Shown here one piece after another: positions 1 to 36,154 of a stretch of 51,778 bases of DNA. A program made the translations under genes and the position numbers. Every line of letters begins with the position of its first letter. Positions within the stretch are counted from its first letter, which is position 1. This DNA comes from a virus. The notes under the pieces are model-generated. The model worked only from the letters and a program-made list of their open reading frames with translations. It made no database searches and had not been told where the DNA came from. Location of the stretch: IMG/VR virus record IMGVR_UViG_3300032069_000864, positions 1 through 51,778 of that record, one strand, 5' to 3'.

Positions 1-1344
1 CGAGATCTCGCCCTCAGGGTTCAACTTTATGCCCAGCGATCGGCGGCCGTGGAGACGCGCGGCGATCAGTGTCGTCCCGCTGCCGGCGAACGGATCGAGC
101 ACCAGGTCGGGATCCGTGGAGAACTCGGACTCATCGAACATCCCGTGGCCCGCCCGGGCCGGGAAGCTGAAGCCGCGCACCATGTTCTCGGCCAGCTCGA
201 GCGGATAGCAGGCGAAATGCGCCTGGCCCTCGGGCCACCGTGTCGTTCCTACCGGCACCTCCCACACGTTGCGCACCATCGGGCGCTTCGTGCGGTGGCC
301 ATCCTTCGTCCGGTGCAGTTCCCAGGGATTCCAGATCGGCGCGTGGTCGTCGTCCAGATCCTTGCTGAACCAGTAGATGTGCTCGACGCAGTTGGTCATC
401 GTCCCATCGGCCGTGGTGGGAGCGCCATTCGGCTTGACCCAGTAGATCGGCCGGACGAACGCAAAGCCGATGCTTCGCATCTGACTCGGGATGTCCCAGT
501 CGTAGGTGTGATGATGCCAGGTCGGGCACACGACACCGCCGAGGTTCAAGAGCAGAGGCCGTTGCCGCTTGAGCACGCGGTGCAATTGCTCAGCGATCGG
601 GCGGAACCAGGTCCACCAATTGTCCGGATGAATCTGGACCTGTAGGCCGGTCTCGCCGCGGAGATTGGGCCGGCCATGCGTGAAGCCGAGGACCGCGCGG
701 TCGCGCTGGCCGAGCGGGCCATTCGGATGGTCTGCGGCCTTGCGCAGGTTTTCCGGGTACTCCCGGGGGCCATTGATAGGATCGAAGTCCACCCCCATGG
801 CGCGCCACTCCTCGATCTCCTCGGGCGTCGCGTCCTCGGGCCACCAACAGCCATCCTCATGCTGCACCAGGTCAGGCTCGCTCAGTCCTTCCCTCGCCAG
901 CTTCTTCCGCGCGTGGGGCGCGCCGATCGTGGCCTTCAGCGCGGCCCGTCGCGCGCTGGCCTTCGGGGAGCGGCCGGCACCGATCTGGTCTCCCGCGTAC
1001 TGCTCCCGCTTGATCTCGCAGTTCTGGTCCTGGAACTCATCGGAGCGGTATCGGCCCTTGCCGGCCAACTTCTTTGCGGCCTGCCGGACGAAGGGGATGT
1101 TGCTCGCCTCGGCGATCACGGAACCATCGTCGCCGAGGAACCTGCGATAGCGGCCCAGGTCCTCGGGTTTGCGCTGCCCGCGCGGGTATGGCGGACTCGT
1201 GGCGATCAGGTCAATGGAGCCATCCGGCAACCGCGCCAGGAGTTCGAGACAGTCGCCCTCGACAACGATCGGGCGCGCCGCGTCGGCCGCGTTGATCACC
1301 GAGGCGAGGTAGGCCCGGGCGTCGGTTGTCGGGGGCGCCGTCAC
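1..1344 (-). CDS. DNA methyltransferase, N4-cytosine or N6-adenine type (partial)
   Basis: An uninterrupted minus-strand frame starts at GTG 1344 and runs off the left edge with 448 codons visible and no stop. Near the start it has the catalytic motif TSPPY (about residue 50). Near the left edge it has the SAM-binding motif DPFAGSGTT. This order (catalytic motif first) is the beta-class arrangement of amino-methyltransferases. About 150 residues between the catalytic motif and the rest probably include the target-recognition region. The GTG start shares one base with the TAG stop of the radical SAM gene upstream, so the two are likely co-translated. Probable role: modifying phage DNA against host restriction. 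No cognate restriction endonuclease is visible. Family assignment is firm; methylated base and target are unknown. Confidence 0.9.
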   Translation of the reverse strand, partial: MTAPPTTDARAYLASVINAADAARPIVVEGDCLELLARLPDGSIDLIATSPPYPRGQRKPEDLGRYRRFLGDDGSVIAEASNIPFVRQAAKKLAGKGRYRSDEFQDQNCEIKREQYAGDQIGAGRSPKASARRAALKATIGAPHARKKLAREGLSEPDLVQHEDGCWWPEDATPEEIEEWRAMGVDFDPINGPREYPENLRKAADHPNGPLGQRDRAVLGFTHGRPNLRGETGLQVQIHPDNWWTWFRPIAEQLHRVLKRQRPLLLNLGGVVCPTWHHHTYDWDIPSQMRSIGFAFVRPIYWVKPNGAPTTADGTMTNCVEHIYWFSKDLDDDHAPIWNPWELHRTKDGHRTKRPMVRNVWEVPVGTTRWPEGQAHFACYPLELAENMVRGFSFPARAGHGMFDESEFSTDPDLVLDPFAGSGTTLIAARLHGRRSLGIKLNPEGEIS

Positions 1345-2081
1345 TACCGCATCTCCTCCGGTAGGAATGGCTTGAGACTGTCCTTCACCAGCACGGCGCG
1401 CCCGGTATCGCGCGCGGCCTTCACGATGATCGGCGCCCACAACCTCCAGTCCACCTCGATGGGCGATGCCATGTGGTTCAGCTTTCCGAGCCTGAACTCG
1501 TCAGTGAACGGCACACACTCGCGGATCACCTCGAGCGCCTGGTGTGGGTAGATGATGGGCTCGACGGAAACGAAGGTCGGAATGCCGAGCTGGTGGGCGC
1601 GGCGGAGACTGTACACGCGTTGCGCCAGGGGCGCGGCCCCGGGTTCCCAAGTCCGCCGACTCGTCTCCTGAGAGAAGACCAGCGTCACTCCGAAACGCGC
1701 TCGCATCTGCCCCAGCAGGTCGAAGTCGCGGTGGGCGCGCTCTCCGCCCTTCGTGAGTATCTGGACCGACACGTTCCAAGTGTGCAAGGTCCGCAACGCA
1801 TCCCGCGTCACGTCCAGTTCCAGGTCAATCTCCGGGTACGGATCGCAGGTGAAGCAGAGCAGCACAGAATCGGCGCAACCCGCGAAGAGGCGCGCGTCCT
1901 TCGCCAGGGCGGCCAGGATCCCAGGGCGCGGCTCCACCGCCGCATGGAAGTCCTCGGGCTTCACGTGGAGGCAGGCGGGGACGTAGCAGTAGCGGCAGCC
2001 GTGCGTGCAGCCGGTGTAGAGGTTGCAGGCCAGCGGGCTATACTCTCGAGCTGCAGCCTTGGGCGTGTAGATCGCCTTCAT
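1344..2081 (-). CDS. Radical SAM protein, spore photoproduct lyase (SplB)-like
   Basis: This 245-aa protein carries the [4Fe-4S] motif CTHGCRYC (CxxxCxxC) about residues 25-32, preceded by CNLYTG and followed by YVPA, as in spore photoproduct lyase-like radical SAM enzymes. An E-T-S segment and VSVEPII later in the chain fit the SAM-binding barrel. True spore photoproduct lyases repair thymine dimers by a radical mechanism; many relatives in phages have no proven substrate. It lies in the DNA metabolism operon between a small basic ORF and the methyltransferase, so a DNA repair or DNA modification role is an inference. Its start overlaps the upstream stop by four bases. Confidence 0.8.
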   Translation of the reverse strand: MKAIYTPKAAAREYSPLACNLYTGCTHGCRYCYVPACLHVKPEDFHAAVEPRPGILAALAKDARLFAGCADSVLLCFTCDPYPEIDLELDVTRDALRTLHTWNVSVQILTKGGERAHRDFDLLGQMRARFGVTLVFSQETSRRTWEPGAAPLAQRVYSLRRAHQLGIPTFVSVEPIIYPHQALEVIRECVPFTDEFRLGKLNHMASPIEVDWRLWAPIIVKAARDTGRAVLVKDSLKPFLPEEMR

Positions 2082-17928: not shown

Positions 17929-17967
17929 GGACTATTTTTTGGAGAAAGAGAGCTAGCGCAGGAAATC

Positions 17968-17976
17968 TGGTATACT
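17968..17976 (+). promoter_or_regulatory. Repressor promoter (extended -10, plus)
   Basis: TGG TATACT is an extended -10 element with no good -35. A start site six or seven nt downstream would fall on or next to the repressor ATG (17983), and no Shine-Dalgarno sequence precedes that ATG. This suggests a leaderless repressor message, as known for lambda cI from PRM. Confidence 0.6.
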
Positions 17977-17982
17977 GGCGAT

Positions 17983-18666
17983 ATGGCGAGGACGAGTATG
18001 CGCTGGCAGGCGTTCATACGGGAACGGATAGGGGAGGGCAGCCAGGCCTCACTCGCCCACGCTCTCGGCCTGTCCCCCGGCGCGGTTTCGAGTTGGGCGA
18101 AATACGGGCAGGTGCCGCTGGAGAAGACGATCAGGAAGGGAGTCAAGAAGCTCGGCGGGGATCTTCTCCCGTGGCTTGAGGCCGCCGAATATGCCCAAGT
18201 GCTCCCATCGCCCGCATCCCGGCCCGAGGCCGTCTCCGAGGCCACCGGTGCCTATACTCCCCGTCCCTCGACCGCCTCGCTTCCGGTCGCTGGCGAGCTG
18301 CAGGCCGGCACCGTACTGGAGGTCGAGGAGGAGCGCGGCGAGATATTCCCCTGCCTGGAAGAGCATGCCCGCCTTGCCGACTATGTCGTCCGCGTCAGTG
18401 GCTGGAGTATGTATCCGACTCTCCAGCCCGGGGACTTCGTGGCCGTCAAACGCTCCCGGATTGCTGATTCGGGCGATATCGTGGTCGCCAAACGGGGCTC
18501 AGAGACCTACCTGAAGCGCTATGGCGGGCGCCGGGCCAAGCGGGTGACCCTGACCTCGGACAACCCGGAATACGAGTCCATCGAGGGCGAGGATATCGAG
18601 ATTGTGGGGATCTACGCCTGGCAACACAGGACCAGAGAGACGGCCAGAAAGGCGAAGGCGAGGTAG
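17983..18666 (+). CDS. CI/LexA-like repressor (HTH plus S24 peptidase)
   Basis: The 227-aa protein has an N-terminal helix-turn-helix (QASLAHALGLSPGAVSSWAK, about residues 21-40) and a C-terminal S24 self-cleavage domain: SGWSMYPTLQPGD with nucleophile Ser142, TYLKRY with general base Lys178, and a probable cleavage site Ala103-Gly104 (PVAGEL). It should repress the divergent early promoter and be inactivated by RecA during DNA damage. Start ATG 17983 is chosen because it follows an extended -10 by six nt and opens the HTH; longer frames upstream cross the promoter. It is a strong sign of a temperate life style. Confidence 0.9.
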   Translation: MARTSMRWQAFIRERIGEGSQASLAHALGLSPGAVSSWAKYGQVPLEKTIRKGVKKLGGDLLPWLEAAEYAQVLPSPASRPEAVSEATGAYTPRPSTASLPVAGELQAGTVLEVEEERGEIFPCLEEHARLADYVVRVSGWSMYPTLQPGDFVAVKRSRIADSGDIVVAKRGSETYLKRYGGRRAKRVTLTSDNPEYESIEGEDIEIVGIYAWQHRTRETARKAKAR

Positions 18667-18686: not shown

Positions 18687-19241
18687 ATGCCAATACTTAG
18701 AGAGAAACTGGCTGCACTCCGCCCCTTCGAGGCGAAGACCGATCAGGATTTCCTTTCCGCCCTGGGGCCGACCTCCGACACCTTCCTCTACCGCAACGGC
18801 AGTCGCCTCTTGGCCTGGGAGGAGGGGGACTATCGGATCAGTCTCCTCTTCACCGTGGACCAGCGCTTTCGGGCCGTGGCCTGGGAGGTAGATGGGGAAT
18901 CCTCTGGCCCTCCCGCGCGTCGGAATCGAGAGATAGGGCAGACAGTACGCCGGATCGTCCTGCTTATCGCTGTGGCCGCCCTATTTTTCCTCTTCCTGTG
19001 CTGGATTCGCCCGCCCTGGGTCGCGTACCGATCTCCGGCCACGCCCTCCTCTGCCGGGATTTCTTCACAGACCGACCCAGCGCATGAGGAGAACGTCAAG
19101 CGGATCCTGGCCGCCTCTCTGATCCAAGGCCAGAAGCGAAATACGCTAGGGCAGATGAAATATGGGCGCGATTATCCCGACCTGACCCCGGACGAGAAGG
19201 CCAAAGTGGACGACGAGTTACAAAAGGACCCGTTCAGGTAG
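18687..19241 (+). CDS. Membrane protein co-transcribed with the repressor
   Basis: Starts 20 nt after the repressor, behind AGGGGG, so it should be expressed in the lysogen. The 184-aa protein has a soluble N-terminal part (about 85 residues), one membrane segment (VLLIAVAALFFLFLCWI, about 91-107) and a C-terminal part of about 75 residues with TLGQMKYGRDYPDLTPDEK. I recognise no family. Prophage-expressed membrane proteins often protect the lysogen against other phages, so superinfection exclusion is a fair guess from context only. It faces the protease gene tail to tail across 95 nt. Confidence 0.7.
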   Translation: MPILREKLAALRPFEAKTDQDFLSALGPTSDTFLYRNGSRLLAWEEGDYRISLLFTVDQRFRAVAWEVDGESSGPPARRNREIGQTVRRIVLLIAVAALFFLFLCWIRPPWVAYRSPATPSSAGISSQTDPAHEENVKRILAASLIQGQKRNTLGQMKYGRDYPDLTPDEKAKVDDELQKDPFR

Positions 19242-19336: not shown

Positions 19337-20383
19337 TCACGGCTGCGTGACCCGCAACGCCCCACAACTGCACCGGTAGACGGTGTAGGCGCCGTTGTAC
19401 GTCTGGCCCAGCAGGTCCCACGTGTGGACGTGCGGAGGTGCCCCTCCCGCTGCTACCTGCATCGCGGCTAGTACGTTCACACGTCCATACCCGAACTTCT
19501 CATCCCTCCCCGGCGTGCCCAGGTCATCGGCCGTGGATTCCAGGATGGTCTCCAGTTGCGCGGGGGTCAGGTTCGGGTCCTGCGAAAGCAACAGGGCCGC
19601 CGCTCCTCCTACGAAGGCCGCCGCCTCCGAACTCCCGGATGCCGAGCGCGAATACCAGCTGTCGTACCAGGAGCAAACCGTGAGCTTCACCCCGGGCGCG
19701 GCGATCTTCACGGATGGGCCGTACCCGAATGCCGGCACCCCATTCTCGTCCAGCGCGCTTACCGTGAAAATGTACGGGGAGGACGCTGCCGTGTACCGTC
19801 CCCATGCATTGCCGATCGAGGCGACGACGAAGCAACCCTTGCCGGTCGCATAGGCTGCCGCGGACTCCACCTCCGCCACGCCCGTCACTTCGTATGGCAC
19901 AATGGCAACCCGCGCCCCCTGGTCCGCGGCCCACCGCAATCCGGCCGCGATGTTCCCCCACGTCGCGTATCCCAGCGGCGGCCCCCCAGGAGTCACCGTC
20001 TTGACCATGCTCACCTGGACCGGCAGGATCGAGCACCCCGCCCCCACCCCCGCCATCGCAAATCCATTATCCGCGATGGCCGCCGCGATGCTCGCCATGT
20101 GCGTCCCATGCTCGTCGCAGACCTGATTCGTGATCCCAGTCCCCGTGACGATATTCCGCCCGGCCAGCAACTTCGCCGTCAGGTCACGGTTGCTGCTCAC
20201 CACTCCGCCGTCTATCACCGCAACCTTGATCCCCGGCTTACCCATTGTGTAATTCCATGCCAACAGCACGCCGGTCTTCGCCAGCTCCCACTGCTGTGGC
20301 ACCGCCGGATCATTCGGCGCGTACCCCCACGCCGCGCCCGCGCACACCACTACCGCCAACACCGCCAACCATAGCCGCCTCAT
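19337..20383 (-). CDS. Secreted subtilisin-like serine protease (S8)
   Basis: ATG 20383 overlaps the upstream stop as ATGA and opens a signal peptide (MRRLWLAVLAVVVCAGAAWG, then YAPND). The 348-aa product has the complete S8 triad: Asp58 in VAVIDGG, His92 in DEHGTHMA, Ser252 in SGSSEAAAFVGG (Glu in place of the usual Met after Ser), plus oxyanion Asn192 in ASIGNAWG. A short C-terminal piece (HVHTW...YRCSCGALR) may bind metal. It is the last gene of the late block, after the tail fibres. Possible roles: degrading host surface or envelope proteins, processing tail fibres, or modifying the lysogen. Secreted subtilases are rare in phage genomes. Confidence 0.9.
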   Translation of the reverse strand: MRRLWLAVLAVVVCAGAAWGYAPNDPAVPQQWELAKTGVLLAWNYTMGKPGIKVAVIDGGVVSSNRDLTAKLLAGRNIVTGTGITNQVCDEHGTHMASIAAAIADNGFAMAGVGAGCSILPVQVSMVKTVTPGGPPLGYATWGNIAAGLRWAADQGARVAIVPYEVTGVAEVESAAAYATGKGCFVVASIGNAWGRYTAASSPYIFTVSALDENGVPAFGYGPSVKIAAPGVKLTVCSWYDSWYSRSASGSSEAAAFVGGAAALLLSQDPNLTPAQLETILESTADDLGTPGRDEKFGYGRVNVLAAMQVAAGGAPPHVHTWDLLGQTYNGAYTVYRCSCGALRVTQP

Positions 20384-20832
20384 CGCTTCACCTTCCCCAG
20401 CGTGTCGCTGACGCCCGTCTCGATATCGGGGAACTTCAACTCCCCCCGCACGTTCCGCGCACTGTCGGCGTACCCCCAGTGGCCTGCACAGGCCGGGTCC
20501 TCCGGCTTCCTGCCATGGCCCCGCACGCACATCTCTCCGGTTCCGCGCCAGGAACAGGTTCCGCAGGTCGTGCCATCCGGCACCGGCCGCCCCTCCAGGA
20601 AGTGATTCAGCACGCACAGCTTCGCATGGAGTTGCGCCTCATCCCAGGGCCGGTCGAACCAGACTCTACCTCGCGCGCAGGCGTCTCGGAAGCGGACAAC
20701 GGCCGCGACAAAATCGGGGTCCGCGGCCGGTCTCTTCTCCCGGCGACAGCGCCACTTGCGCACCTCGACGGCGATCCCGCACGCCGCCATCACGGTCCCC
20801 ACCGCTGCCAGCACCAGCAGCAGCCAGTTCAC
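20380..20832 (-). CDS. Membrane-anchored Cys-rich protein, 150 aa
   Basis: One N-terminal membrane segment (WLLLVLAAVGTVMAACGIAV) is followed by a basic stop-transfer (RKWRCRREKR) and a soluble domain with CGTCSWRGTGEMCVRGHG and DPACAGHWG, whose cysteines could bind metal or form disulfides. I recognise no family, though the Cys pattern resembles small protein modules in phages that bind iron or zinc. The stop overlaps the protease start, so the two are likely made together and may work at the envelope. Confidence 0.6.
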   Translation of the reverse strand: MNWLLLVLAAVGTVMAACGIAVEVRKWRCRREKRPAADPDFVAAVVRFRDACARGRVWFDRPWDEAQLHAKLCVLNHFLEGRPVPDGTTCGTCSWRGTGEMCVRGHGRKPEDPACAGHWGYADSARNVRGELKFPDIETGVSDTLGKVKR

Positions 20833-21281
20833 GGCTTCTCATTCTCCGGCAACTCCGCCGGAATCTGCCCCGCGTCCTCCGGCGTCAGCCACGGCCTCAC
20901 CATCCACTGCACCGCCGCGGTGCATCGCGCCGCCATCTGGTCGCGTATCTCCTGGGTCAAACTCTCCCACATCTCCTGGCCCCACATGTTGCACATGAGC
21001 ATGTCAAGGAGCATCTCCTGGAGAGCCTTCCCCACCTCCCCCGCATCCATCTCCGGCGGCTGCAACGCCCGCCGGATCCCCCACTCCTCGTCCGCGGTCA
21101 GCCGGTCCACCATCGCCTGCAACGCGAGGGTCAGCGTCGCTCCCGTGGCCTCCAACGGCCCAACTCCGTCTGACCAGACCACCCCCACCACGTACCCCGG
21201 TGGATCACCGGGCCGAATGGCAGGCTCTATAGGGGGATCGTCGGGGCCCCTGTACCTGAATCGCAGCACCAGTTTCCTCAC
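20829..21281 (-). CDS. Hypothetical protein, 150 aa
   Basis: The start is ATG 21281; the stop overlaps the next gene by four bases. The N-terminus (MRKLVLRFRYRGP) and the middle (EMLLDMLMCNMWGQEMW) contain hydrophobic stretches but no clear membrane helix. I recognise no domain. It belongs to a run of three short unknown genes between the tail fibre and the protease, where phages often keep lysis or host-interaction genes. Confidence 0.55.
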   Translation of the reverse strand: MRKLVLRFRYRGPDDPPIEPAIRPGDPPGYVVGVVWSDGVGPLEATGATLTLALQAMVDRLTADEEWGIRRALQPPEMDAGEVGKALQEMLLDMLMCNMWGQEMWESLTQEIRDQMAARCTAAVQWMVRPWLTPEDAGQIPAELPENEKP

Positions 21282-21310: not shown

Positions 21311-21766
21311 CTATACCTCGTCCACTCCTGCTTCTCCGGTTCCGATGCGGTCGATGATTTGATCGAGGATGGGGAGCCGATAACCCGGCCCGTTATCCTC
21401 CACCGCCTTCCGTAGGATCCCGAGCGCCGTCTCTCCCGCGATGTAATCGTTGCCGGCCTCCATCGCCTCCTCGATCTTTCGCATGACCCCCGCGACGAGC
21501 CGGATGCGACCGGCGGTCATCCCCGCGGTATTGATCATCGCCAGCAGATTGCAGAGTACCTGCCCCAGGATGGGCTGGTCCTCCGCGGGGAACTCCTTGC
21601 CTTCGATCACCGCCCCGGTGGGCCGTCCCTGCGCGTCAAGCACCGGTTTGACCTCACGACGGGGCTTCAGGGGCTCCCGCCGCGCCCGGTCGAGCAAGTA
21701 GTCCTTGAGGCCGGTGATCGTGATACTGGCGTTTGCCGCTGGTGCTGGTCCTGGCTTCTTCATCAT
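21311..21766 (-). CDS. Hypothetical protein, 151 aa
   Basis: ATG 21766 is preceded by AGGAG at eight nt. The product has a Lys/Pro-rich head, a basic segment (LLDRARREPLKPRREVKP), and a helical second half (MINTAGMTAGRIRLVAGVMRKIEEAMEAG). It resembles the small proteins in tail-fibre clusters that assist assembly only in position and length. No family recognised. Confidence 0.55.
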   Translation of the reverse strand: MMKKPGPAPAANASITITGLKDYLLDRARREPLKPRREVKPVLDAQGRPTGAVIEGKEFPAEDQPILGQVLCNLLAMINTAGMTAGRIRLVAGVMRKIEEAMEAGNDYIAGETALGILRKAVEDNGPGYRLPILDQIIDRIGTGEAGVDEV

Positions 21767-21810: not shown

Positions 21811-23994
21811 CTAGCTATAGGTGACGAGGCCGAGAGCCTTGATCGCGTCGCAGAACGCCAGCATCCAAGTGCCCGCGCTCGGTTTGCTGGAGCCGGAAAC
21901 CGTCTGCCTGGCGACAGGCGTGGCGGCATAGAAACCGATCTTCTGCGTGGTGCCGGTCGCGATCTGCATCCCGGTGGTAGTGTCCGTGGCGATGTTCTGC
22001 GCGCTCAGCGTCAAGGTCCCGGCTATGGACACGGCCCCATGGAGGTAGATGCCGATGTCCCCGTAAAGGTCGAGATGCCCATCGGCGTCGCTGGTGAGGT
22101 AAATAGTCGAATCGCGAAATTGCAATATGCCGCACCCGCCGCCGGTGGAGTTCGCGATCAGAATCGTCCCATACCCGAGCATCGTAGAAGAAAGCGTGAG
22201 GGTGCTTCCTCCCGACATGATGGCCCCGGCGAACGTCGGGGTATCGGAGGTGGTCAAGCCGCTGACGTCTGCCTGCCCGATGCTCGCCCAGGAAACCGTG
22301 GTTCCGCCTGCGGCTACCACCTCCTTGAACCAATAGGTGCCCTGGCTGCCAGGCACCGCTACTCGCGACGGCACGCCGCTCGCCCCGCCACAGATCATGT
22401 CGCCCACGGTGGTCATGGGGTTGCTCAGCACGGTCGCCCAGGTGTACCCGTTCTTTCCGCTATTGACCGTAAGCGCGTAGCCCGCCGTTGCTCCGATGGC
22501 GATCTCTGCCAGGGTCGTCGTGTCGGAGGCGTAGACGATGGCATATTGAGTCCAGGAGCTCTTGTTTGTCCCGCCGTCCGCCACCGCCACGTCGGTCGCC
22601 CCGCCCGCCATGTAGACCGCCTTGCCCTCGACGCTCATCACCCCGGCCGAGACTCGGGCCAGAGTGGTATCGGTGGCCGCCCCAAGCTCGATGGTGGAGA
22701 ATTGCGGGCTCCCCGTCGTGGAGTAATCCTGAGAGATGGTCGGGTTCCCGCTGATCTTGAGCGTCCGGTTCGCGTTCACCACATCGATGGTCAGCGCGCG
22801 CGCCGCGCTGATGGTGGTCGAAGAGGTGCAGGTAAAGGTCACGTCATAGGCCGCGCTAGTATCTCGCAGGGCGAACCCCGTGAGCGCCGCGAGCGTTCCT
22901 CCCGTGATCGCCACGGAATTCGCCGCCTGGGTAGCGATGGTGCCGAGCCCGGAGATGTCTCCGGTCGCGGGTTGCGCCTTCGTCCAGGCTCCCGTGCTGG
23001 AATTGTACGCAGTGAGGAAGTTATGGGAGGCTCCCGCCTCGTTGGCAGGCACTACCTGATCGCCGCTATTGGTCCCGGAGACCGTAGCCGTGCTGCTCAC
23101 CGTGAGGTTCGCCCCGAGCTTGAATGTCCGGTTCGCGTTCACCACATCGATGGTCAGCGCGCGCGCCGCGCCGAGGGCAGTGGAAGAGGTGCAGGTGAAG
23201 GTCACGTCATAGGCCGCGCTGGTATCTCGCAGAGCAAAGCCCGTCAGTCCGGCAAGGGTGCCACCCGTGATCGCTACAGAGCTCGCCGCCTGGGTGCAGA
23301 TCGAACCCAGCCCATGGACGGAGGTACCGGTGGCGTTCACGTGCGTAGTCAGATTGCTCTGCACGCCGGAGGCCGCACCGGAGGCGTCCGCTCCTACATC
23401 GGAATAGGTCAGTCCATGGGCGGCGAACCCGTAAGTGCTCTCGGTGAGCGCCTTGAGAAAGTACCCTGGGGTCAGCCCGGAGACCGTGTGGAGGGAGCCG
23501 ATCAGCGCGTGCTGGGAAGGAGAGAAGCTGCTTGGGATATTGGCGAGCGCGCCATACCCGATCTGTGGGCCCTCGCCCGCCGAGCCGGTATGATGGTGTC
23601 CGGTGCTCCCGTCGAACTTCGGGGAGTGATCCCCCCATCCATAAGCTGCATCCCAGGCCGATATGTCGCTGCTGTCGATCCCGGCAGCTACCGATCCAGA
23701 GAAGACCGGATCGGTCTCGGCAGAGACCAGCGCGCCCCACCCGGCGGAGTAGATGTAGATGGCGGCCGCGTCGGCAAGCCAAAGCGCCATTCCGGCAGTC
23801 GCCGCCGTCAATTCCCAGGCCGTGCCCGACCATTCGGCAACAGCATTCGCGTGGCCTGCCCAATCGCCACTGGGACTCGTCCCGATCAGATATCGATCTC
23901 CCGTCGCCGGCGATCCCGGTGGCGCGTCGAGTCGGTCCGCCACCGGCGGCTGCCAACTGAATGTGCCGAGGTCCGGGAGACGGTAATCAGTCAC
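21811..23994 (-). CDS. Tail fibre or receptor-binding protein with DUF2793 domain
   Basis: The 727-aa protein starts with a DUF2793-like module (APPGSPATGDRYLIG, GDWAGHANAVAEW, about residues 22-70), then Ser/Thr/Gly/Ala-rich repeats typical of trimeric beta-helical fibres. Two near-identical 57-residue blocks (each containing GFALRDTSAAYDVTFTCTSS) lie 121 residues apart. The C-terminus (DADGHLDLYGDIGIYLHG, KIGFYAATPVARQ) fits a fibre tip of the kind that shows structural variation between relatives. It follows a short DUF2793 gene and sits after the lysis genes, as fibre genes often do. Host receptor unknown. Confidence 0.8.
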   Translation of the reverse strand: MTDYRLPDLGTFSWQPPVADRLDAPPGSPATGDRYLIGTSPSGDWAGHANAVAEWSGTAWELTAATAGMALWLADAAAIYIYSAGWGALVSAETDPVFSGSVAAGIDSSDISAWDAAYGWGDHSPKFDGSTGHHHTGSAGEGPQIGYGALANIPSSFSPSQHALIGSLHTVSGLTPGYFLKALTESTYGFAAHGLTYSDVGADASGAASGVQSNLTTHVNATGTSVHGLGSICTQAASSVAITGGTLAGLTGFALRDTSAAYDVTFTCTSSTALGAARALTIDVVNANRTFKLGANLTVSSTATVSGTNSGDQVVPANEAGASHNFLTAYNSSTGAWTKAQPATGDISGLGTIATQAANSVAITGGTLAALTGFALRDTSAAYDVTFTCTSSTTISAARALTIDVVNANRTLKISGNPTISQDYSTTGSPQFSTIELGAATDTTLARVSAGVMSVEGKAVYMAGGATDVAVADGGTNKSSWTQYAIVYASDTTTLAEIAIGATAGYALTVNSGKNGYTWATVLSNPMTTVGDMICGGASGVPSRVAVPGSQGTYWFKEVVAAGGTTVSWASIGQADVSGLTTSDTPTFAGAIMSGGSTLTLSSTMLGYGTILIANSTGGGCGILQFRDSTIYLTSDADGHLDLYGDIGIYLHGAVSIAGTLTLSAQNIATDTTTGMQIATGTTQKIGFYAATPVARQTVSGSSKPSAGTWMLAFCDAIKALGLVTYS
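22763..22932. repeat. 170-bp direct repeat, copy 1
   Basis: Near-identical to 23126-23295, exactly 363 bp (121 codons) away, inside the tail fibre gene. The first 45 bp match almost perfectly. It encodes one of two beta modules and could recombine to change fibre length. Confidence 0.85.
23126..23295. repeat. 170-bp direct repeat, copy 2
   Basis: Second copy of the block at 22763-22932 in the tail fibre gene. Most differences are at third codon positions, so selection keeps the protein module. Confidence 0.85.
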
Positions 23995-23995
23995 G

Positions 23996-24445
23996 CTACA
24001 GGGTCACCATCACGCACTTGCGGGCCGCGACATAGCGCAGGTCCCACGCCACCGCGGCTTCCACGTCCTCGGCCGATGCGGAATGGGTCCCGTCGTCCAG
24101 GCTCTCGGCCTTGTCCACGATCCCGTCGTCGTCGGCATCGTAGGTGGCCTTCAGCATGTCGCCGCCGGCCTCGAACGCGCCCCAGGCCGCGCCATCGAAC
24201 AGGTAGAACTTGTTCTCGTCCACGATGTAGACGAACCAGCCCTCCTCCGGCGTGTCGAAGGCCCAGGCCGTGCCGGTGTACCAGGCGATGGCGTTCGCGT
24301 GGCCCGCCCAATCCCCGGTAGGCGAACCCCCGACGATATACCGATCGCCCTCGCTCGGCGTGCCCGGTGGCGCATTCAGGTCCTTATCCAGCACCTGCCG
24401 CTGGAACGGTGCGAATTCCTCGATCAGCAATCTGTAATCGGCCAC
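23996..24445 (-). CDS. Short DUF2793-domain tail protein
   Basis: The 149-aa protein shares with the next gene a start of the form DYRL and the block NAPPGTPSEGDRYIVGGS...GDWAGHANAIAWYTG, so both carry a DUF2793 module. After it come YDADDDGIVDKAESL and a region rich in Asp that may bind calcium, and a C-terminal part matching AVAWDLRYVAAR. It is probably the attachment or collar part of the fibre, or a truncated paralogue of it. Confidence 0.75.
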   Translation of the reverse strand: MADYRLLIEEFAPFQRQVLDKDLNAPPGTPSEGDRYIVGGSPTGDWAGHANAIAWYTGTAWAFDTPEEGWFVYIVDENKFYLFDGAAWGAFEAGGDMLKATYDADDDGIVDKAESLDDGTHSASAEDVEAAVAWDLRYVAARKCVMVTL

Positions 24446-24799: not shown

Positions 24800-25168
24800 C
24801 TATCCTCCAGGCGCCGGCGCCACCGCCATGCTTCGTGCCACCACGATTTCGAATGGCGGACTCAATTGCACCCCGAGAGGCGGGTCTTCCGGATCCTCGG
24901 CCAGAAAGGTGAGCACTAATTGCCCCTCGAACTCCCCGCTCTCCGCGAGATCAGCCTTGGCCCAGTCGTAGTGGCACGTCCCGGCCAGGGGTTCGTCCAC
25001 GGTACATGGCCCCTCGAGCGTCGCCTGCCCGCCCTTCGGCCCGAACCGGAACATGACCGCCACCGTGGTGAGGTCCATCGGTGCGCGGTCTTCGGTAATG
25101 GACCTTGCCACGGTGATCGTGAATCGAATCGGGGGCAGTGTGTCCCCGGCCTGCCAGGTCGCTGGCAT
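24800..25168 (-). CDS. Baseplate upper protein-like (BppU N-terminal type), 122 aa
   Basis: The sequence WQAGDTLPPIRFTIT followed by DLTTVAVMFRF and CHYDWAKADLAESGEFEGQLVLTF has the pattern of the BppU N-terminal domain, an immunoglobulin-like module that anchors host-binding proteins in siphophage baseplates. Length fits a single module without the usual helical stem. It touches the amidase stop (one base overlap) and precedes the fibre genes. Confidence 0.6.
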   Translation of the reverse strand: MPATWQAGDTLPPIRFTITVARSITEDRAPMDLTTVAVMFRFGPKGGQATLEGPCTVDEPLAGTCHYDWAKADLAESGEFEGQLVLTFLAEDPEDPPLGVQLSPPFEIVVARSMAVAPAPGG

Positions 25169-25731
25169 CAGTTCCCTCCTGCCCAGGCCCGCAGGCCTGC
25201 ATCAATCGCCGCCACCGCCCGCGCCTGCCATTCCTCGGTCAGCATGGCCGCGCGCGCGTGAATGTCGGATAGGAATCCGACCTCGATCAGCGCGGCCGCC
25301 TGCCGGCCATGGAACAGCACGAGATAGGTGTAGGGCCGCCCATTCCGATCCCATGGCGCGCGCACGACCTGGCTCTTCTCGGCGAAGCCGGCCTTGCCGG
25401 TCGCACTCAGGGCCAGCGCGTTCGCCAGGCCGGCGGACCCCCGCCGCTTCCCATCCCAGTACGTGATACAGCAGTGGAGATCGGGATCCGTCTTGGAGGA
25501 ATTGCAGTGCAGGGAGATCACCACGTCGGGTTCGCGTCTGAGTAACCGCGCGCAGAACCGCCACAGTGCATTCCGCTCCGGCAGCCGGCTGGTCGGCACG
25601 TATTCTATGCCGTTCCCCGACAGATTCGGGATCCGGTGGGCCAGTGCCACCACGATTTCCCGCTCGGCCACGCCCTCTACTACGGCGCCGGGATCACTCT
25701 CCGAATGCCCCGCCTCAATCACGACCCGCAT
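25168..25731 (-). CDS. N-acetylmuramoyl-L-alanine amidase (Amidase_3), endolysin
   Basis: ATG 25731 has GAGGAAG directly upstream. The 187-aa enzyme shows the zinc-amidase motifs: VIEAGHSESDPGAV (first His), a Glu in VAEREIVVALAH (second ligand), ISLHCNSS (third ligand His), and ALIEVGFLS with the catalytic Glu. It should cut the amide bond between muramic acid and the peptide stem. No separate cell-wall-binding domain is present. It overlaps the membrane protein gene upstream, which is the likely holin. Confidence 0.92.
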   Translation of the reverse strand: MRVVIEAGHSESDPGAVVEGVAEREIVVALAHRIPNLSGNGIEYVPTSRLPERNALWRFCARLLRREPDVVISLHCNSSKTDPDLHCCITYWDGKRRGSAGLANALALSATGKAGFAEKSQVVRAPWDRNGRPYTYLVLFHGRQAAALIEVGFLSDIHARAAMLTEEWQARAVAAIDAGLRAWAGGN

Positions 25732-26014
25732 CGGTCTTCCTCTCACTCAATAGGCATGGCCGCTGCTCCAGCCGATCGCAGATCCGCGTCATGCCCAGCC
25801 GCAGTTCCACGACTCCGGCGCTCATATCCTTGACCGCCGTGGCCACCGCTCCGGCCTGCTCTTTGACCGTGGATGTGAAGTCCTGCCTCATGGCCGTACG
25901 TTCCGCGCGGCCCTCCCGCAGTTCTACAATGAAGGCCCGCACCATCAAGGGAACCACCACGACGACGCACAGACCAATGAGCCCCGAGATTCCATACTCC
26001 AGGAATCCCTCCAT
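25715..26014 (-). CDS. Probable holin (one membrane segment)
   Basis: The 99-aa product has an N-terminal membrane helix (YGISGLIGLCVVVVVPLMV) after five or six residues, then a charged coiled-coil-like tail (ELREGRAERTAMRQDF...VEQ). It overlaps the start of the amidase by 17 nt, the classical holin-endolysin arrangement. It is larger than minimal holins of this class but similar to BhlA/one-helix types. Lysis function inferred from context and topology. Confidence 0.65.
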   Translation of the reverse strand: MEGFLEYGISGLIGLCVVVVVPLMVRAFIVELREGRAERTAMRQDFTSTVKEQAGAVATAVKDMSAGVVELRLGMTRICDRLEQRPCLLSERKTDAGRD

Positions 26015-35246: not shown

Positions 35247-35837
35247 TCAGAACTCCTTCTGGAATACCAGCATTGTCTTCGCCGGCCCCGTAGGTCCGCG
35301 CGCCGGCGCGAAGGTCAGGGAGAGTCCGCTGCCGGTCGCCTTGCGCCCAAGCAGCGCCAGCGCGTTGACCGACGCATACCAGCTCAACCCATAGTCCGTC
35401 CACGGGAGATAGACGACTCCGGCCTTCAGTGGCAAACCGTCTCGCATCACGTTCAGGGATAGCGCAGGTCGGTAGTACCTTTGCCGTTGCGGGGCCTGCC
35501 CCTGGCCATCAGTGGTCGTCTCTTCCCAGATCAGTACTTCCAACCGACTGGCATGCGCGAGGAACCGGCCCACATCGGCCGGTCGCGTGATGTTCAGGAG
35601 GTCCTGGATATCCGGCGGGTTGTCGGTCTCGTACATATGCAAGTTGACGATGAAGGAGGTGGCCCAGAACGAGCCCGCGTCCTTGTCGAAGGACGTCACC
35701 AGGACAGGGCCTCCACCCTCCAGGGTCACCTCCGCGCAGACCGGAGCAATCAGCAACGCCGAGAACATCACCAACAGGGCCGCCAGGAAGACGGCCTGCT
35801 TTGCCCAGAGGCGGTTGCCCCAACGACTTCGTCCCAT
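35247..35837 (-). CDS. Exported protein of unknown function, 196 aa
   Basis: ATG 35837 has GAGGAG upstream; an earlier ATG at 35852 lacks a site. The N-terminus is a signal peptide (KQAVFLAALLVMFSALLIAP, then VCA before EVTLEGGG). The mature part is a beta-rich domain (NLHMYETDNPPDIQDLLNIT, YYRPALSLNVMRDG). I recognise no family. Inside a head-tail operon an exported protein is unusual; it may be a moron-type gene acting on the envelope. Confidence 0.65.
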   Translation of the reverse strand: MGRSRWGNRLWAKQAVFLAALLVMFSALLIAPVCAEVTLEGGGPVLVTSFDKDAGSFWATSFIVNLHMYETDNPPDIQDLLNITRPADVGRFLAHASRLEVLIWEETTTDGQGQAPQRQRYYRPALSLNVMRDGLPLKAGVVYLPWTDYGLSWYASVNALALLGRKATGSGLSLTFAPARGPTGPAKTMLVFQKEF

Positions 35838-35848
35838 GCTTTCTCTCC

Positions 35849-36154
35849 TCATAGGTAGATTCGCTTCACCGATGCCTCGCCTCCCAGATCTCGGGAGGCC
35901 GATACCGTGATCGCTATCAGGTACGTCGTCCCGTCACATGAGAGTTGATCTCCGACCGCCATCTCCTGTGCCGGCGCCACCGTCACGGTGACTTCGGAGG
36001 TCACCTGCTCTCCTTGGAGATTTCGCACCAGCCGGCGCTTCTCGATCCAGCGGCCCGCCAGCTGCTCCGCCTCCCCGAATGTCGGTTGCCCGTATCCGTC
36101 CGTGCCCGTCCGCGGCTTGCGCCAAATGGTCTGGGCCAGATAATCCTCGATCAC
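35849..36154 (-). CDS. Head-tail adaptor (head closure) protein, 101 aa
   Basis: GTG 36154 overlaps the upstream stop as GTGA. The product (VIEDYLAQTIWRKPRTGTDGYG, AEQLAGRWIEKRRLVRNLQG, VTVTVAPAQEMAVGDQL) resembles the head-closure/stopper proteins of siphophages by length, the IEKRR-type basic strand and the beta-barrel pattern. The longer frame upstream would overlap the 74-aa gene and lacks support. Confidence 0.65.
   Translation of the reverse strand: MIEDYLAQTIWRKPRTGTDGYGQPTFGEAEQLAGRWIEKRRLVRNLQGEQVTSEVTVTVAPAQEMAVGDQLSCDGTTYLIAITVSASRDLGGEASVKRIYL

Follow-up and report, generated by a model that had tools for sequence, protein, structure and literature searches.

A phage late gene block ends with a predicted exported, thermitase-like S8 peptidase that lacks a propeptide

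The protease gene and its neighbors

We analyzed a 51,778-base stretch of DNA (the window), which is a virus record from IMG/VR. It encodes terminase, portal, scaffold, capsid, and tape-measure proteins as well as DUF2793 fiber proteins, and the virus is siphophage-like. Because it has an S24-type repressor gene (17953-18666, plus strand), the phage may be temperate. We did not identify an integrase in the window in the searches that we made. Directly 3' of the repressor gene is a 184-amino-acid protein with one transmembrane (TM) helix and no PHROG match (18687-19241, plus strand).

The late block on the minus strand includes two DUF2793 fiber genes (the smaller is at 23996-24445), and downstream of these are two genes of no assigned function, P0002, and then the protease gene (Table 1). 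The protease was originally predicted to lie in the late block after the fibers, and it does. Each of the last three genes overlaps its neighbor among them by 4 nt, and a good ribosome site (AAGGTG) precedes the ATG of the protease gene. There is no promoter-like or terminator-like site on the minus strand between the protease gene and the late block. The coupling to a membrane-anchored, Cys-rich protein also holds up, as P0002 is the overlapping gene directly upstream. P0002 has no Pfam or PHROG family and no relative in viral_contigs, and its structure model (pLDDT 49) is not usable. Separately, the larger fiber gene contains a direct repeat of 208 nt (22743-22950 and 23106-23313, 83% identical).

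Table 1. The protease gene, its functional features, and the genes upstream of it (positions in the window)
Feature	Positions	Strand	Basis or remark
Exported-type S8 peptidase gene, 348 aa	19337..20383	-	Last gene of the late block
C-terminal tail HVHTW...YRCSCGALRVTQP, HxH and CxCG, putative metal site	19340..19432	-	Common to L200
Peptidase_S8 domain, residues 51-300	19484..20233	-	Pfam match; modeled fold
Catalytic Ser252 and Glu253 (GSSEA)	19625..19630	-	Alignment column
Oxyanion Asn192 codon	19808..19810	-	Alignment column
Pro163-Tyr164-Glu165, S1/S3 substrate strand	19889..19897	-	Ser-Leu-Gly in other S8 proteins
Catalytic His92 codon (EHGTH)	20108..20110	-	Alignment column
Catalytic Asp58 codon (VIDGGV)	20210..20212	-	Alignment column
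Signal-peptide-like region, residues 1-20, predicted cleavage AWG|YAPNDP	20324..20383	-	Hydropathy; alignment with solved thermitase starts at residue 21
P0002, 150 aa, one N-terminal TM helix, Cys-rich basic remainder	20380..20832	-	4-nt overlap with the protease gene
150-aa protein, no assigned function	20829..21281	-	4-nt overlap with P0002
151-aa protein, no assigned function	21311..21766	-	After the fiber gene
DUF2793 fiber-like protein, 727 aa	21811..23994	-	Same block, upstream of the protease

We considered whether the protease might belong to a lysis cassette, and we dropped this idea because the window's apparent lysis pair is at 25168-26014. It consists of a 99-amino-acid protein with one N-terminal TM helix (25715-26014, minus strand) that overlaps an Amidase_3 gene (25168-25746, minus strand), and these are likely a holin and an endolysin. 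So lysis has no obvious need for the protease gene.

A thermitase-like peptidase without a propeptide

Judging by its sequence and its modeled fold, the gene product is a thermitase-like S8 peptidase. The open reading frame runs from an ATG at 20383 to a TGA at 19337-19339 and matches PF00082 with E = 4.2e-32 (112 bits, as compared to the curated cut-off of 21.8 bits). The only PHROG match is phrog_3677 ("protease", category other, E = 3e-37), and none of the PHROG families of head maturation proteases matched. The best solved relatives by sequence are thermitase (1thm, E = 4.5e-27) and the AK.1 protease (E = 4e-24). We modeled the structure with 35 aligned sequences as input (mean pLDDT 89.5). 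Residues 21-313 of the model, which we used for structural matching, have a subtilisin fold: Z = 43.1 to 1dbi, with an rmsd of 1.3 over 267 residues, and Z = 42.6 to 1thm. Identity to these thermitase or AK.1-type S8A proteins is 34-35% over about 270 residues. In the S8 alignment, Asp58, His92, Asn192, and Ser252 fall in invariant or nearly invariant catalytic columns, and the triad is in the order Asp, His, Ser. So the S8 triad and the oxyanion Asn that had been reported are both in place.

The protease begins with MRRLWLAVLAVVVCAGAAWG, followed by YAPNDP. This region has a single hydrophobic stretch (mean hydropathy of 1.98 over 19 residues) and an Ala/Gly site at -3/-1. By hydropathy and the -3/-1 rule, we predict that residues 1-20 are a signal peptide, as the original prediction had proposed. 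The mature N-terminus of thermitase, which is of the same YxPNDP type, aligns from residue 21 of the protease, which leaves no space in which a propeptide could fit. Similarly, a Pfam profile search found no propeptide of the I9 or fervidolysin type in the window protease, and PF00082 was the sole match. In these comparisons, the mature domain directly follows the predicted signal peptide, and the propeptide is absent. Because subtilisins normally require a propeptide for folding, maturation without one would be of biochemical interest. Intracellular subtilisins have no signal peptide and carry a short N-terminal extension with a LIPY-type motif; the window protease has a hydrophobic leader and no LIPY-type motif.

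The substrate cleft and the C-terminal tail

To put the residues around the cleft in context, we counted residues at S8 columns in the 80 best viral S8 proteins from at least 280 relatives. At column 163, all 80 have Ser, and most of them have Ser-Leu-Gly along this strand, while the window protease has Pro-Tyr-Glu. The position after the catalytic Ser is Met in 71 of the 80 and Glu in none, which bears out the earlier remark that Glu replaces Met beside the catalytic Ser. Also, the residue after Asp58 is Gly, where nearly all of the others have Thr or Ser. Pro-Tyr-Glu and Glu253 point to a cleft whose specificity may be narrow or altered, rather than to general digestion. Neither Pro-Tyr-Glu at the S1 strand nor the missing propeptide was part of the original prediction.

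The tail (HVHTW...RCSCGALRVTQP) contains HxH and CxCG, and because of this pattern we consider it to be a putative metal site. In the model, the tail forms strands at residues 322-328, 333-338, and 343-346, with pLDDT of 66-73. The metal-like C-terminus that had been noted is thus in place, and HxH, CxCG, and the final RVTQP are all conserved in a protein from another phage contig, L200. A scan for the tail pattern found only L200 and three very short frames that do not include a protease. We rejected tail matches in Rhodococcus phages as weak (E near 1).

A second phage with the same form

L200 (IMGVR_UViG_3300032069_000415) is a viral contig of 13.8 kb that encodes an S8 protein of 348 amino acids with 46-48% identity to the window protease. 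The two proteins share a signal-peptide-like start, which in L200 is followed by a PNDP start; the absence of a propeptide (a Pfam profile search found no prodomain match in the L200 protein); and the tail. L200 also keeps the triad, so this closest relative does not show the loss of triad residues that would have counted against the original prediction. Unlike the window protease, it retains the Ser of the S1 strand and has Ala after the catalytic Ser, and its gene is inside the head module, with terminase (E = 1.2e-78), portal (E = 4.1e-54), head-morphogenesis, and capsid genes. The S8 gene overlaps the head-morphogenesis gene by 4 nt. The L200 phage also encodes a separate maturation protease that is fused to the capsid protein.

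In our tree, the window protease and L200 group together with support of 100/98, within a large group of S8 proteins that bacteria secrete (99/95). Given that L200 has the same propeptide-less, tailed form, the sequences place these two in a small, phage-specific clade. We found this form in just these two contigs, and the phages are unrelated. The closest cellular kin are the secreted S8 proteins from L121-L138 (Bryobacter and Burkholderiales type), which are in the same 99/95 clade and are up to 42% identical to the window protease. The bacterial kin that we checked (L121, L123, and L126) have a fervidolysin-type prodomain and Big_7 (Ig-like) C-terminal domains, and the phage form has neither. 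(PF22148 prodomains were above the cut-off in these three and also in L049 and L050.) The tree was drawn with a midpoint root, so the direction of change is conditional: if the bacterial form is ancestral, then the phage clade would have lost the prodomain and Big_7 and gained the tail. The dN/dS ratio between the window protease and L200 is about 0.55, and as this is one divergent pair, constraint may be weak. The S8 family and its fold are well known; what is new here is a phage form that has no propeptide, has a tail, and is encoded in a late block.

Two other phages that we identified from their portal proteins (G002 and G005) share head, tail, and replication genes with the window, and G005 shares the fiber genes as well. 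Neither has an S8 match. Downstream of their tail or fiber genes, they have an M15-type endolysin gene and an integrase. Because these relatives lack S8 and have other genes in this region, the site of the protease is a variable one. G005 also encodes a fusion of a glycosyltransferase and a methyltransferase downstream of its fiber genes (L021:3263-4486).

Subtilases in other phages

Subtilases are common in phages, as judged by alignment, and the exported ones are a minority. An alignment scan found S8 relatives in at least 280 viral contigs; when the window protein was used in exact-peptide scans, no relative was reached in viral_contigs or genome_contigs. Among the 80 best viral S8 proteins, 19 have a signal-peptide-like start, and the other 61 lack one, most of them being leaderless proteins of about 310 amino acids. 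So the original statement that exported subtilases are very unusual in phages was too strong, and what stands of it is that they are the minority type. The leaderless proteins of large phages and the proteases of phages SP-15 and MTATph1 share the S8 domain with the window protease, but they lack a signal peptide and belong to a different clade. Many of the leaderless large-phage proteins begin with an LLPY-like motif, which we take, as a lead only, to resemble the motif of intracellular subtilisins. We excluded three fecal "Bacteriophage sp." records (MT835886, MT837317, and MT836370) as phage examples because we judged their sequences to be host-gene-like. In the open-access literature, as far as titles and abstracts reveal, we did not find a characterized exported phage subtilase.

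Some of the other exported-type proteins are also encoded among structural genes. L049 has an exported-type subtilase with a fervidolysin prodomain (L049:9668-11188) between portal (E = 2.8e-57) and head-morphogenesis/capsid genes. L043-L048 encode close relatives, and in L043 the gene order is the same, with S8 directly after portal. Where it could be computed, dN/dS between pairs from L043-L049 was about 0.07-0.15, which indicates clear purifying selection. Downstream of its capsid gene, L203 encodes a protein in which the S8 domain immediately follows a leader, with no propeptide (L203:9416-10083, cut by the end of the contig). This protein is more distant and does not group with the window protease in the tree, and its catalytic His is replaced by Arg (RGTW). 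In L205, an S8 gene with no clear leader is beside tail genes. The sequences of L200, L043-L049, and L203 support in spirit the idea that phages that are not related to each other repeatedly have exported subtilases in a structural or late module.

Possible roles of the protease

Overall, the original observation is confirmed, far beyond what would be expected by chance, and its interpretation is partly supported. To our knowledge, the standard view of how phages assemble and lyse their hosts does not include exported proteases. Our preferred explanation, which we offer tentatively, is that this is a Sec-exported late peptidase that, toward the end of infection, cleaves proteins of the host's envelope or surface. 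The protease would be made together with the late genes, exported by the host's Sec system, and folded without a covalent propeptide, and a metal on the tail might hold or stabilize it. Cleaving host proteins in the envelope or at the surface as infection ends could make it easier for virions to be released, or it could keep new virions off of debris and receptors.

We favor this explanation because the S8 fold and triad are kept, because the mature domain directly follows the predicted signal peptide, and because the gene is the last one of a tightly packed late block. Furthermore, L200 has the same form beside head genes, exported S8 proteins are under purifying selection in other structural modules, and G002 and G005 have an endolysin gene downstream of their fiber genes. 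There is also a precedent by analogy. In Listeria, a metzincin (Mtz) that is secreted and derives from a phage makes the bacteria more sensitive to lysis by phage (PMC8235301). As an exported protease from a phage, Mtz would follow the same logic, but it is not a relative: it is a metalloprotease of another fold and is paired with a TIMP-like lipoprotein (PMC8235301). On the other hand, the change from Ser to Pro at the S1 strand, the dN/dS of about 0.55 with L200, the separate location of the window's own lysis pair, and the lack of S8 in G002 and G005 all argue against our explanation.

A rather unlikely alternative is that the protease is a lysogenic-conversion (moron) gene, so that a lysogen would express and secrete it and thereby alter the host's surface or surroundings, for example to block superinfection. 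The variable, cargo-type site next to the repressor gene would fit, as would the glycosyltransferase-methyltransferase of G005 and the integrases of the relatives, which lie in the same region, and the exported kin of the protease are enzymes that bacteria secrete. However, on the minus strand we saw neither a promoter-like site for this gene alone nor a terminator that would set it apart from the late block. Also, the gene is translationally overlapped with those upstream of it, and our searches identified no integrase in the window.

It also seems unlikely that the protease is virion associated or morphogenetic, either processing or attaching to fibers or heads or clearing a protein surface layer at entry. 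It is true that L200 and L043-L049 have their S8 genes within a head module and that the S8 gene of L205 is next to tail genes. Matches to the S8 fold also occur among cyanophage structural proteins, and the last fiber gene is near the protease in the window. But a signal peptide would take the protein out of the cytoplasm, which is where virions assemble, and the L200 phage already has a head maturation protease.

We think it is quite unlikely that the protease is a catalytically impaired or decaying passenger from a bacterium. This idea would account for Pro-Tyr-Glu in place of Ser-Leu-Gly and for the absence of the propeptide, and L203, another phage S8 protein with no propeptide, has lost its catalytic His. 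Because of the S1-strand Pro and the dN/dS with L200, we keep this idea alive. Yet the frame is open; the triad, the oxyanion Asn, and the conserved tail are all undamaged; the third-position G+C of the gene is the phage's own (0.811 vs. 0.799 across the window's called genes); and an unrelated phage has kept this form in L200. Finally, a weapon against competitors or a scavenging enzyme for nutrients that is freed at lysis and acts outside of the phage cycle proper would fit with the general extracellular subtilase kin, but it has no direct support and the changes in the cleft argue against broad digestion, so we consider it very improbable.

If we return to the late cleavage of host envelope proteins, a broader form of this explanation is possible, if doubtful. 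Sec-exported subtilases might have been placed repeatedly in the structural operons of unrelated phages as a general late step of envelope trimming. The window protease and L200 would then be a phage-specific, propeptide-free branch in which a metal-binding tail anchors or activates the enzyme and the cleft has been recoded to aim at one host protein. Together, a late, propeptide-independent subtilase in two unrelated phages and the purifying selection on exported subtilases that other phages encode among their head genes would suggest a step at which phages remodel the protein surface of their hosts.

Other apparently exported proteins and a radical SAM protein

Another late gene in the window also encodes an apparently exported protein: a protein of 201 amino acids with a signal-peptide-like start and no PHROG match is encoded in the head-tail connector block (35247-35852, minus strand). 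In L203, a further protein with a signal-peptide-like start is encoded before the S8 gene, as are two TM proteins. We compared the window's 201-amino-acid protein to this exported neighbor and found no similarity. At its left end, the window encodes a radical SAM protein (1344-2081, minus strand; PF04055, E = 5e-8).
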